NCBI GenBank assembly: GCA_017993835.1
Contig: JAGOLX010000008.1
Span: 48,340 to 112,339, forward strand
Length of the DNA stretch: 64,000 nt
DNA from: Phycisphaerae bacterium
GTDB lineage: Bacteria > Planctomycetota > Phycisphaerae > Sedimentisphaerales > Anaerobacaceae
Reading direction: 5' to 3'
In this document: positions 18,458 to 23,437 of the stretch, in pieces
Layout: each line of letters opens with the position of its first letter
How positions within the stretch are numbered: position 1 is the stretch's first letter
Translations under genes and position numbers: made by a program
The notes under the pieces: generated by a model
The model's input: only the letters and a program-made list of their open reading frames with translations
Database searches by the model: none
What the model was told of the DNA's origin: nothing

Positions 18458-21400
18458 CTATTCGAATCTCGCCCGAGCGGGGGCCGGATTCCGCGCTGGG
18501 TTCTGCCGGCTCTCTGCCAGGGCAGCAGACGGGGGCGTTTTCACTGTTGGCGGCCTGCGAAACACGGGCGCCAGCGTCCACGCGGCCAGACACAAGACGA
18601 CCGACAGGAATGCCCACGAGCCGAGATTCGGGCGAGTTCGCGCCACGACGTCGCCGTGGGCAGGGATGAGCCGGCTCTCGTAGCGGCAGCGGTCGCAGTG
18701 GATGCAATCCAGACGGTCCCGGCCGCTCAGGCCGAACTCGCACCGCCCGAACTTCTTGGCGGGCAGGAACCGCCCGAGCCAGCCTCCGGCGTTGAACAGC
18801 GACAAGAAGGCGCCCGTCGGGCACAGGTATCGACACCACATCCGCGTCACGATCAGGGCGCCGAACAAGACGACCACCGCCGTGATCAGGCCTGGCGAGG
18901 CGAGGAACCCTTCCGACCAGAACTGTCGGTTGAACACGAGCGTCAGCGGGTCCATTTCAAGGAAGTGCGTGCTGCCTGTCCAGAAGAAGGCGACGACAAG
19001 CACAAACAACACGCTGTACTTGAGGAACCGCGCCGCCGTCATCGTGGCAAGGCACGGACGCGCCTTGAACCGTTTCGGCAGGACGATGCCAAGCAGCTCC
19101 TGAACCGCTCCGAACGGACAAAGGTATCCGCAGTAGACATTCCCCAGCAGCAGCACGACCAGGGGTACACCCAGCAACAAACAGACGGCCGCAATCGGGC
19201 TGTCCAGCAATCCTTGTCCGCTCAGCAGGCGGATCACATGGTCGGTGGAGTACTGGCGGTTGAGCCAGACGCCGCCGACGCCCGCCGTGAACGCCAGCAC
19301 CGCCAGGCGGCTCCACAGCCGACCGTGGCAGATCGCGACCAGCGCCAACAAGATGCCTGCCGCCCAATAGACAACTAGCCAGTTCACCCGCTGCAGCCAA
19401 CCCTGGTCTACAGCGTCGGCAACGCGGGCGCCGCTGAGCGCCGAGGCGTCGAACTGAGGGCCCGAGGTCCGCAGCAATCGCAGGATCGCGTTGCAGCTCA
19501 GCGTCGCGCCACTGACCGCGTTAACACCCTGCACAGGCGTCGGCCCGAACACTCTTCTTCCCTTGAGCGAGGCCATCCAGTCGCGGATGCGGCTGATGTA
19601 TCGCGGCGTCTCGCGGGATCGCGTGATCCGAAAGTCGATCAGCGTCCCGCAGGGATCGGCGAATACGATCACGGACATGGCCCCTCCGTAGCCATAGACA
19701 GTGTTGGAGAAATCCTCAGACCGGAAGATGTAGCCTCTGAGTTGCGAGTTCTCGCGGACCTCGTGATACGTCGCTTCCTTCGACGTGACTGTGGAGACGA
19801 CCTTCCTGGTGGACAGGCGACGCCCTTGAATCCAGTCCTGGATGGCCACCGTCGCCTGCGATCTCGTTTCGGCGCGTTCCCTGTAACCCAGGACATGCGA
19901 ACCAACGATAAGAGACAAGGCCGCCGCGAGCAGACAATACCCGACCGGGGTGAGTACCGGATGGGCAACCACGCGCTTGCCGGGACGCATCAAGTCCTGG
20001 CGGGCACCTCCCACGAGGAAGACCTCACCCAGTGCAAAGGCAGCCGCAACCCACAACGCTGCGTGGAAACCCGTCAGCGGGATCAAGAACAGGCCCGCCA
20101 GACCGCCCCAAACCCCTCCCAGATAGTCCGCACCCGCCAGACAGGCCGCGAACGGGGCCGCCTCCTCGCCGCATTCCTCCAAGACTTTCCCCCCGAGAAC
20201 CACGGTCGCGCCGCTGAAGAACCCGTACACGAACAACAGCACGGCGAGAACCGCCCACGGCGCCGGATGGTCGAGGACGAGACCGGAAGCCGCAAGACAT
20301 ACTACTTGGATCGCCAGCAGAGCCCCCAGCGCGAGCAGCACGGATCGCAGATGGGTAGGCCCCTTCGGATGCAAGCGTGAGACCGCCCATTGTGCACACA
20401 GAGCACCAAAGGCCGATCCGCCTAGAAACAGGGAGAAGGCCAATCCCACGCACTGGGACGGCGCGCCGCAGCCCAACAGCCACGCTTGCATCAGCAGAAC
20501 CAGAACGATGGCACCCACTGCGCCGGCGCAGCCACACAGAAGCAGCGAATCGGATCGCAACGTTTCGCTGCTTTGCAGATCGGTTCGTCCTCTGGCCCGC
20601 GGCGCGGTACGGACGATGTAGACGAGGCGCATGACAGCGAATAGCAGGATCGGGACGATCACGACCGTCAGCCCGCCGCGAAAGAGGAGCCGAACGGGTT
20701 GCACAAGTGGTAGGCCTGATCGATCCATCGCCTGAAGAAGGCTGCACAAGCCGTAACTTGGCTTGGCGTCGGAATTGACAAGCCTTGCGGCCGGAAGCTC
20801 CACAGCATCGTAGCGATTCAGCATCTTGAGCGATCGTTCCGGTCGATACACGCCGGACAACAGTTCAACCGGGAAGATCTCGCCCGCGTTCTCCACGAGA
20901 CCAAACCGGGTCTCCAGACCGATGGGCGAAACCTCGACGGAGCCGCCGGCCGAACAGATGAAGAAGGTCCGTCCCGCGAGGGGCACGAGCAGCGACTGAG
21001 AGAACACAGAGTCCAGGGTGCGTTCTGCCCAGGCGCCCTGGTACGCCGGCTCGCCGCCGGCCAGATTCCAGTCGCCTGCGATTCCCATGACCAGCACGCC
21101 AAGGGGACGCAGGGACGGCTTGACCTGCTCGAAGAACTCCGTAGACGCAAGATGGTGAAGCGAGGCATCCACCACGGACGGCAGATTGACGACCACCACA
21201 TCGTACGTCCGGGGCGACGCAGCCAGTGTCGCTCGAATATCATCCGTCACGTAGTGCAGGCGCGGATCGGATACGCGAAATCGCTCGGGCAGACGGGCCG
21301 TCATCGCCTGGATGTACTCGCGATCCGGGCAGAACCAATCTACTCCCCTGATGCTCGTTGACAGCAGGAATCGCTCGCAGACAGCCAGTCCGTCGCCAAT

Positions 21401-22288
21401 CACCAGGACCCGCTCAGCGCTGAAGTTCTGAGAGAGGGCAAGAGCTGCAACCTTGCCGGGCTGCATCGTTTCCCCGACGACCTCGCACATCCCGCCGGGA
21501 CCGACGACACCCCACCGCTGGCCGTCGGCGCCGCAGAGATACACACCTCGTTGCGTGCGAAAGCTGCCGTCGAGGGTCCCGCTCGACAGGCTCCGGCTCC
21601 AGCGTTGTTCCTGCAAGGCTCTCGTCAGAGGGATGTCCGCACGCAGAACCGCGACGGCAAGGACAACGAGCAGACACGCGCCCGCGGCGACGCGAATCCA
21701 CTTCGCCTCCGACGGGTGACCGACGCATGTGCGCCACGCGAGAACGCCGCAGAGGGGGACCGCCAGGATCATCAGGATCTGGATCGTGCTCATCCCCACA
21801 AAGGGAAGGAATGCCGCAGCCAAACCACCGAACACCCCGCCGGCCACTCCCCAGACCCAGACGACACTGAGAGACGAGTGTTCCTTCTCGGCCCGTCGGG
21901 CACAGAGGGTCGGGAAGAACAGACCGGTCGCAGCTCCGCCCGGCGAGAAGATCAGCAGGGACCACGCCAGGACCTCCTGCAACGAAGGGACCGAACCCGG
22001 TTCCGGGCCTACCCTGACCAGCAGGATAACGGCAAGGTACTGAAGGTATGAAACAGGAATCGGCGCGAGGAGGAACAGTCCGGTCGCCGGTCCCAGACGC
22101 ACGAGTCCATCGCGGATTCTGCGGAAGAGGAAGGCACCCAGAGCCCCGCCGAGGAACCACGTTCCCAGGAGCGCGCCGGCCCACAGATCGCCGCCTGCGA
22201 GGACCATGCCGACCTCGCGCATGAGCAACACCTGGATCGCAACGACCAGCAGACCCCAATAGAACGCCAGACTTGCATGAAGCTGCAT
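18458..22288 (-). CDS. Giant membrane fusion: spermidine-synthase-like, FMN-binding and polyferredoxin domains
   Basis: About 1276 residues in three blocks. (1) About 1-215 hydrophobic helices, then a Rossmann domain (about 285-480; VLVIGDG, DPRLHYVTDD, YDVVVVNLP) and another bundle of helices (about 540-800): the layout of membrane-embedded spermidine-synthase-like proteins, but with a degenerate glycine loop. (2) About 805-940 an extracytoplasmic FMN-binding domain with the covalent flavin motif SGATLS (Thr about 929), as in RnfG, NqrC and NosR. (3) About 965-1245 a NapH/NosR-like domain with helices, two CxxxCP motifs (about 1053 and 1152) and a C-terminal CxxCxxC cluster site (about 1195-1201). 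Blocks 2 and 3 should carry electrons across the membrane. The substrate is unknown. ATG 22288 follows GGGG; a GTG directly precedes it. Confidence 0.8.
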   Translation of the reverse strand: MQLHASLAFYWGLLVVAIQVLLMREVGMVLAGGDLWAGALLGTWFLGGALGAFLFRRIRDGLVRLGPATGLFLLAPIPVSYLQYLAVILLVRVGPEPGSVPSLQEVLAWSLLIFSPGGAATGLFFPTLCARRAEKEHSSLSVVWVWGVAGGVFGGLAAAFLPFVGMSTIQILMILAVPLCGVLAWRTCVGHPSEAKWIRVAAGACLLVVLAVAVLRADIPLTRALQEQRWSRSLSSGTLDGSFRTQRGVYLCGADGQRWGVVGPGGMCEVVGETMQPGKVAALALSQNFSAERVLVIGDGLAVCERFLLSTSIRGVDWFCPDREYIQAMTARLPERFRVSDPRLHYVTDDIRATLAASPRTYDVVVVNLPSVVDASLHHLASTEFFEQVKPSLRPLGVLVMGIAGDWNLAGGEPAYQGAWAERTLDSVFSQSLLVPLAGRTFFICSAGGSVEVSPIGLETRFGLVENAGEIFPVELLSGVYRPERSLKMLNRYDAVELPAARLVNSDAKPSYGLCSLLQAMDRSGLPLVQPVRLLFRGGLTVVIVPILLFAVMRLVYIVRTAPRARGRTDLQSSETLRSDSLLLCGCAGAVGAIVLVLLMQAWLLGCGAPSQCVGLAFSLFLGGSAFGALCAQWAVSRLHPKGPTHLRSVLLALGALLAIQVVCLAASGLVLDHPAPWAVLAVLLFVYGFFSGATVVLGGKVLEECGEEAAPFAACLAGADYLGGVWGGLAGLFLIPLTGFHAALWVAAAFALGEVFLVGGARQDLMRPGKRVVAHPVLTPVGYCLLAAALSLIVGSHVLGYRERAETRSQATVAIQDWIQGRRLSTRKVVSTVTSKEATYHEVRENSQLRGYIFRSEDFSNTVYGYGGAMSVIVFADPCGTLIDFRITRSRETPRYISRIRDWMASLKGRRVFGPTPVQGVNAVSGATLSCNAILRLLRTSGPQFDASALSGARVADAVDQGWLQRVNWLVVYWAAGILLALVAICHGRLWSRLAVLAFTAGVGGVWLNRQYSTDHVIRLLSGQGLLDSPIAAVCLLLGVPLVVLLLGNVYCGYLCPFGAVQELLGIVLPKRFKARPCLATMTAARFLKYSVLFVLVVAFFWTGSTHFLEMDPLTLVFNRQFWSEGFLASPGLITAVVVLFGALIVTRMWCRYLCPTGAFLSLFNAGGWLGRFLPAKKFGRCEFGLSGRDRLDCIHCDRCRYESRLIPAHGDVVARTRPNLGSWAFLSVVLCLAAWTLAPVFRRPPTVKTPPSAALAESRQNPARNPAPARARFE

Positions 22289-22404
22289 CACGTCGTCCCC
22301 ACCACATCAGGCACACTTTCACCCAGATAGTGGTGAGATCTCGACGTGGGTGACAAGAGAAGCAGCTTCTTTTGGAAGTGCAAGGAAGGCGTGGTCTCCC
22401 ACAG

Positions 22405-22447: not shown

Positions 22448-23437
22448 TCAGAACTGCTTGAGGAATCGCAGATCGTTCTCGGTGAGCCAGCGAATGTCTG
22501 AGATCTCGTACTTCCGCATGGCCAGACGCTCGATGCCAAAGCCGAAGGCCCAGCCGGTATACTTCTCGCTGTCGATTCCGACGGCGTCGAAGACGTTCGG
22601 GTCCACCATGCCGCACCCGCCCATCTCGACCCATCTTTCCTGCCCTGCCTTGTCCACCAGGAGCAGATCCACCTCGGCGCTGGGCTCGGTGAAGGGGAAG
22701 AAGCTCGGGCGGAACCGCCACTTGGTGTCCGGCCCGAAGAAGACGTGAATGAACTGCTCGATCGTGGTCTTCATATCGACCATGGTGACCCCCTCATCGA
22801 CGACGAGGGCCTCGAGCTGATGGAACATGTACATGTGCGTTGCGTCAACCGTGTCGGGGCGATAGACCCGACCCGGCGCAACCACGCGGATCGGTGGTTT
22901 GGTCTTCTCCATCACGCGGATCTGGATGGTCGAGGTCTGGCTGCGCAGCAGGACGCTGTCCTCGACGTAGAAGTTGTCCAGCGGATCCCTGGCCGGATGC
23001 TCCGGCGGGATGTTCAGCGCGACGAAGTTGTGCCACTCGTCTTCGACCTCGGGGCCGTAGGCGACGCCGAAACCCATTCGGCCGAAGATGTCCAGCAGTT
23101 CCGAGATCGTCTGCATGATCACATGACGCTTGCCGATGGCAAATGACGCCCCAGGCAGCGTCACGTCAACCAGTTCCCGCTGCGGCCTCTGCGACGCTTC
23201 CAGGGCCTTTCTACGCTCCTCGAAAGCCGCGGTGACGTCGTTCTTCGCCTTGTTGGCGAGCTGCCCACCACGCGGCTTCTCCTCCCGGGAGAGCTTGCCC
23301 ACCTCACTGAGCAGGCCCATGATCAGACCTTTGCGCCCCAGGTACTTGATGCGGAAATCCTCAAGGGCCTTCAAGTCCCGGACGTTCTCCAGCTCCGCGA
23401 GAGCCTGTGCACCGATCTGTTCGAACTGATCGAGCAT
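22448..23437 (-). CDS. pheS: Phenylalanine--tRNA ligase alpha subunit
   Basis: 329 residues; the catalytic alpha subunit of the heterotetrameric class II enzyme that charges tRNA-Phe. An N-terminal coiled coil (about 1-85) binds tRNA. The core has GKRHVIMQ, the motif 2 region (GRVYRPDTVDATHMYMFHQLE) and motif 3 (GWAFGFGIERLAM). Length matches the family (about 330-345). It is the last gene of thrS-infC-rpmI-rplT-pheS, with only 2 bases after rplT. The beta subunit gene pheT, normally next, is not present; a hairpin and the large redox gene follow instead. The beta subunit must be encoded elsewhere. Confidence 0.97.
   Translation of the reverse strand: MLDQFEQIGAQALAELENVRDLKALEDFRIKYLGRKGLIMGLLSEVGKLSREEKPRGGQLANKAKNDVTAAFEERRKALEASQRPQRELVDVTLPGASFAIGKRHVIMQTISELLDIFGRMGFGVAYGPEVEDEWHNFVALNIPPEHPARDPLDNFYVEDSVLLRSQTSTIQIRVMEKTKPPIRVVAPGRVYRPDTVDATHMYMFHQLEALVVDEGVTMVDMKTTIEQFIHVFFGPDTKWRFRPSFFPFTEPSAEVDLLLVDKAGQERWVEMGGCGMVDPNVFDAVGIDSEKYTGWAFGFGIERLAMRKYEISDIRWLTENDLRFLKQF

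Follow-up and report, generated by a model that had tools for sequence, protein, structure and literature searches.

What does a single chain do that joins a spermidine-synthase-like membrane protein to a flavin and iron-sulphur electron-transfer module? The gene in question lies on the minus strand at 18458..22291 of the window, the whole 64,000-nucleotide stretch of planctomycete DNA that was analysed, and all features given below are on this strand. Its extent of 1277 aa was defined by the open frame, by Pfam and NCBIfam matches and by full-length orthologues. The frame starts with a GTG at 22291, an alternative ATG at 22288 gives 1276 codons, and the plus strand over the same coordinates has many stops. 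The upstream neighbour is pheS (22448..23437), an order that is the same in the orthologous loci L128, L129 and L160, and a scan of the interval between pheS and the fusion gene for promoters and terminators found none.

The frame is far beyond chance, because a further full-length copy in this genome (G000:C68, locus L040) shares 35% identity over aa 9–1212 and full-length orthologues in other genomes share 49–56%. Open frames above 1100 aa were found in 33 of the 89 genomes of the same family, several of them single-contig genomes, and a match of any kind at E ≤ 1e-10 in 48 of the 89. The survey added five other genomes of the phylum that carry the same fusion. In the phylum sample (294 genomes), other long fusions occur in G192, G019, G139 and G169, those of G124 and G050 are cut by contig ends, and elsewhere two separate genes encode the N-terminal half, of about 800 aa, and the FMN-NapH half. 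An assembly join was ruled out by the same long frame in 33 of 89 family genomes, single-contig ones included. In a tree of N-terminal halves, those that stand alone group together (support 0.999), which fits a single fusion or fission. Two frames of about 1010–1030 aa (L161 and L162, from G322 and G321) stop after FMN_bind, as a variant or by a frameshift, with no NapH-like match within the region retrieved, and the stand-alone FMN-NapH proteins of L055, L056 and L058 have about 200–390 additional residues before the region that matches the fusion.

The N-terminal half consists of a first membrane bundle of about seven helices (21644..22291, aa 1–216), a Rossmann domain with its linker (20669..21643, aa 217–541, core 282–402) and a second bundle (19889..20668, aa 542–801); the bundles were placed by family hydropathy, the domain by Pfam and a family profile. 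Against Pfam Spermine_synth, aa 282–402 gave E = 9.3e-4 and 19.2 bits, below the gathering score of 22.9. In NCBIfam, the polyamine aminopropyltransferase family PRK03612 was matched at 4.6e-11, far under its curated cut-off, and speE and NF037959 (fused MFS/spermidine synthase) at 21.4 and 21.2 bits, below cut-offs of 249 and 40; a stand-alone relative, in L053, reaches NF037959 with 73 bits against the cut-off of 40. A profile of 30 relatives matched solved spermidine synthases at 2.5e-34, indicating a homologous Rossmann fold, and the window protein alone matched the aminopropyltransferase of T. thermophilus at 2.7e-6. The catalytic DxxDP reads NLPSV in the window protein, where both acidic positions are gone, and NxPD in most cassette-type members; the glycine motif and catalytic acids are degenerate across the aligned fusions. 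A true aminopropyltransferase was ruled out by the lost motif and by the family cut-offs that were not reached. The Rossmann half probably has a structural or ligand-binding role instead.

The C-terminal half begins with an FMN_bind domain (19469..19693, aa 867–941; Pfam, 4.2e-7) that includes SGATLS (19496..19513, motif at aa 927), the predicted site of covalent FMN attachment at Thr930, which fits the flavinylation consensus [S/T]G[A/S]TX[S/T] (PMC5928378). A NapH/NosR-like membrane module follows (18626..19387, aa 969–1222), defined by Pfam, NCBIfam and hydropathy. It holds two CxxxCP motifs, CGYLCP (19115..19132, aa 1054) and CRYLCP (18818..18835, aa 1153), both kept in every fusion shown in the alignment, and a C-x11-CxxCxxC arrangement (18686..18742), with CIHCDRC at aa 1196 and a conserved Cys1184 upstream, which is probably a single 4Fe-4S site. 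Fer4_5 was matched at E = 1.5e-13 over two stretches, NapH at 9e-13 (48.3 bits, curated cut-off 213), NosR at 2.5e-12 (45.9 bits, curated cut-off 1000) and RnfG at 7.5e-6, far under its curated cut-off; the profile of 30 relatives matched RnfG/FMN domains at 1e-12. An FMN_bind domain with the consensus motif thus precedes the membrane module, which carries the two Fer4_5 CxxxCP motifs, as in flavinylated NapH-like proteins. The host genome has two ApbE genes. A plasmid search gave partial matches, mostly NosR-type. AlphaFold models of the two halves, made without an alignment, reached pLDDT values of 46 and 42 and were not used.

What the earlier note had seen in this gene is confirmed, and its interpretation holds in part: one open frame of 1276 codons (counted from the ATG at 22288, on the minus strand, where the note gave no strand), a true single-gene fusion, with the same long frame in other genomes and a full-length paralogue in its own, and an N-terminal stretch of about 800 residues that does have a domain match. 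The aminopropyltransferase-like domain is degenerate, as it had proposed, and the transmembrane flavin/Fe-S module is borne out by Fer4_5, FMN_bind and the cysteine motifs; the domain search returned the sub-threshold spermidine-synthase domain, FMN_bind/RnfG and Fer4_5/NapH/NosR in the order it gave.

Family-averaged hydropathy shows seven helices ahead of the Rossmann domain; the loops with positive charge alternate in a way that puts the Rossmann and FMN domains outside and both CxxxCP motifs and the Fe-S site inside. From this pattern we infer that topology, in which the extra last helix (18461..18625, with the tail) would bring the C-terminal tail outside. The predicted position of the FMN domain agrees with that of PceC, whose FMN domain was shown by experiment to lie outside (PMC5928378).

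The partners of the fusion were found at the paralogue's locus, L040, where a radical SAM gene, a Memo-AMMECR1 gene and the fusion form a same-strand run; Memo-AMMECR1 ends 0–4 bp from where the fusion begins, and the radical SAM gene lies 1.7 kb upstream of the fusion start. The partners scored 352.6 bits for AmmeMemoSam_rS (cut-off 220), 240.8 for AmmeMemoSam_B (cut-off 26) and 172.4 for AmmeMemoSam_A (cut-off 99), and the cassette partner families passed at NCBIfam cut-offs are TIGR04336, TIGR04335 and TIGR04337. Among fusion loci with at least 600 bp of upstream sequence, 32 of 40 have a same-strand AMMECR1 whose end lies between −7 and +72 bp relative to the start of the fusion, and a radical SAM gene also precedes in 29 of the 37 with at least 3 kb. 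The eight exceptions to AMMECR1 adjacency are the window gene, L128, L129 and L160, all window-type and behind pheS; L130 (G331), a sister of the window type; L141, with AMMECR1 2.7 kb upstream; L159; and L162. L159 (G345) is a cassette member whose 805-aa frame starts about 18 bp after AMMECR1 and has a window-like C-terminal half; it apparently lacks the first membrane bundle and is a possible intermediate toward the orphan type. The halves keep similar company when separate. Stand-alone N-terminal halves lie beside a radical SAM gene in seven loci (L049, L052, L053, L057, L061, L062 and L064; four convergent) and behind Memo-AMMECR1 in L085 and L104, and stand-alone FMN-NapH genes lie beside both partners in L056 and L058. 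Of the 27 genomes that hold a relative, 25 have AMMECR1, compared with 153 of all 294 (Fisher 3e-6); the radical SAM family is present in each of the 27 (1e-7). Both values are uncorrected for kinship. In another set of loci (L079-L084, L087-L089, L091, L094 and L106-L108) a Memo-AMMECR1 fusion gene is followed in tandem by a second, stand-alone AMMECR1 match.

The Memo-AMMECR1 proteins that adjoin an N-terminal half or a fusion have a strongly hydrophobic N-terminal segment before the Memo domain in 30 of 35 distinct loci; of the remaining five, contig ends truncate two, and a lipobox-like sequence is present in two more. The stand-alone Memo of the host genome (L074) has no room for a leader. 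In human MEMO1 a dioxygenase-like site takes up iron or copper, and the iron ligands are H49, H81 and C244 (PMC11081632). The equivalents of these residues, mapped by motif (HAGY, GPTH and CG), are invariant in 67–68 sequences, as is the RGC of AMMECR1. Tat-like leaders (RRxFL...) were seen on AmmeMemoRadiSam radical SAM proteins near stand-alone N-terminal halves or exported Memo-AMMECR1 (L049, L052, L057, L061, L062, L064, L086, L090, L092 and L095), which suggests that these enzymes are exported from the cytoplasm. No leader was found on the radical SAM proteins of fusion cassettes, and the system there is therefore not wholly outside. A tail of the form GQPRDVD...LSxREAxFYKKLE is kept in 32 of 40 fusions (e.g. 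L040:7622-7720). It resembles EAxxYxKL, a peptide directly ahead of CxLCP in the ordinary AmmeMemoSam radical SAM proteins (E = 0.011 for the best match of a tail profile). Cassette radical SAM proteins do not have this peptide, and the two may be a shared docking peptide.

We consider it probable, with some reserve, that the fusions are a fourth component of an extracytoplasmic AmmeMemoRadiSam cassette and feed electrons to the exported Memo, the window copy being a relocated duplicate. The cassette would consist of a cytosolic radical SAM enzyme, a membrane-anchored exported Memo-AMMECR1 and the fusion. Electrons from a cytosolic donor or quinol would enter at the cytosolic 4Fe-4S site and the CxxxCP motifs, and traverse the membrane to an FMN that ApbE attaches on the outer side. 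NapH-like and NosR proteins make such a transfer: their flavin is extracytosolic, and its electrons come from quinol or a cytosolic donor (PMC8238504). The FMN would then reduce the metal centre of the exported Memo, or keep the metal ferrous, and the spermidine-synthase-like domain with its two bundles would serve as a platform, altered in its catalysis, through which the wire is held to the cassette. A wider picture, to which we give slightly less than an even chance, places the AmmeMemoRadiSam chemistry of planctomycetes outside the cytoplasmic membrane, on its surface. There an anchored Memo-AMMECR1 enzyme would draw on a transmembrane flavin/Fe-S electron source of its own, fused to a spermidine-synthase-like membrane protein put to a new use; in related systems without the fusion, even the radical SAM enzyme appears to leave by the Tat route.

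The redox half has the full NapH-like plan, NapH-like flavinylation clusters (2465) serve many oxidoreductases modularly (PMC8238504), and the window copy exists without a cassette. The protein might accordingly be an ordinary NapH/NosR/PceC-type flavinylated conduit for a respiratory or detoxifying enzyme elsewhere, with the N-terminal half a mere anchor and Memo-AMMECR1 sharing the operon without direct electron transfer. We regard this as unlikely, since a casual operon would not keep the adjacency seen in 32 of 40 loci and again for each half alone. Two membrane bundles that flank a SAM/dcSAM-type Rossmann fold, and stand-alone N-terminal halves that adjoin radical SAM genes, several for apparently exported enzymes with Tat-like leaders, would also suit a half that carries or supplies a nucleoside-type substrate (e.g. 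S-adenosylmethionine or a derivative) for cassette chemistry outside the membrane, the redox half being the electron source. However, the degenerate glycine motif and catalytic acids, and the leaderless radical SAM protein of fusion cassettes, make such a role doubtful. The earlier note had the protein as a new transmembrane redox enzyme whose aminopropyltransferase-like domain senses or uses a substrate; as a self-contained enzyme, it would bind in this domain a substrate that the flavin oxidises or reduces. Every part is indeed in one chain, and the charge pattern places the FMN domain on the Rossmann domain's side of the membrane, but the catalytic motif is lost, the N-terminal half evolves faster in window-type genes, and the paralogue, like nearly every relative, belongs as a subunit to a larger cassette, so that we hold this proposal to be improbable. 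The cassette link is invisible from the window alone because the window copy has left the cassette.

The window locus has no TIGR04335, TIGR04336 or TIGR04337 gene near the fusion. In the N-half tree its clade (G367w, G369w and G331) has support 1.0 and a long branch. The Rossmann domain has lost the NR(Y/F)xT and DP residues and the conserved cassette-type tail (GQPRDVD...LSxREAxFY) is gone; every flavin and cysteine motif is kept. Between window-type pairs, dN/dS was 0.43–0.53 in bundle 1, 0.23–0.40 in the Rossmann domain and bundle 2, and 0.12–0.21 in the FMN and NapH modules, against an even level of about 0.18–0.33 between cassette-type pairs, all values being rough because dS is near 1. 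The redox half of the window gene is thus under tight purifying selection and its N-terminal half is relaxed. A pseudogene was ruled out by these ratios and the intact motifs. A decaying duplicate without function would fit the faster N-terminal bundles and the lost tail, but is very improbable given the full-length frame retained in several species at 49–56% identity and a constrained redox half with all cofactor motifs. In a contig scan, a fragment of a close relative from an uncultured Phycisphaerales (L011; 80% identity in the C-terminal part) keeps the downstream neighbours of the window gene, RF-1-like, M56 peptidase and AddB. The window gene is best read as a paralogue that has diverged, moved out of the cassette and come to stand behind pheS. 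After the duplicate moved there, its redox half would have stayed constrained while the cassette-facing half drifted; on this evidence it probably still moves electrons, feeding Memo-AMMECR1 in trans or another acceptor.

The conservation of Memo and AMMECR1 extends from archaea to humans, both have been linked to disease, and we know of no established chemistry for either. The fused electron-transfer subunit and the export signal of Memo-AMMECR1 point to a Memo reaction that is here probably of redox type and located outside the cytosol, which would narrow the search for its substrate to the envelope. Our literature search, in which published Memo gene contexts were partly covered, found no description of the fusion or of a redox subunit of the Memo-AMMECR1 system. 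The 2019 JBC article of Burroughs et al., to which PMC7159879 refers, reportedly deals with how Memo domains evolved and may list related contexts. Spermidine, spermine, Memo and radical SAM are not mentioned in PMC8238504.

With NapH-like, NosR and PceC (RdhC) proteins the fusion has in common an extracytosolic FMN_bind domain with SGAT, membrane helices, two CxxxCP motifs and an Fe-S site (PMC8238504, PMC5928378). Unlike them, it has an 800-residue spermidine-synthase-like membrane half in front, a single C...CxxCxxC site and an added C-terminal helix, and it falls far under their family cut-offs. The membrane-bound spermidine-synthase-like proteins of PRK03612 and NF037959 resemble it in the succession of bundle, Rossmann domain and bundle and in profile homology, whereas the window protein reaches none of the family cut-offs and no longer has the acidic residues of DxxDP. 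All three parts of AmmeMemoRadiSam (TIGR04335, TIGR04336 and TIGR04337) are encoded with the paralogue and most relatives; in contrast to that system, Memo and AMMECR1 form here a single protein that is exported and anchored, and the set gains a transmembrane redox subunit of its own.
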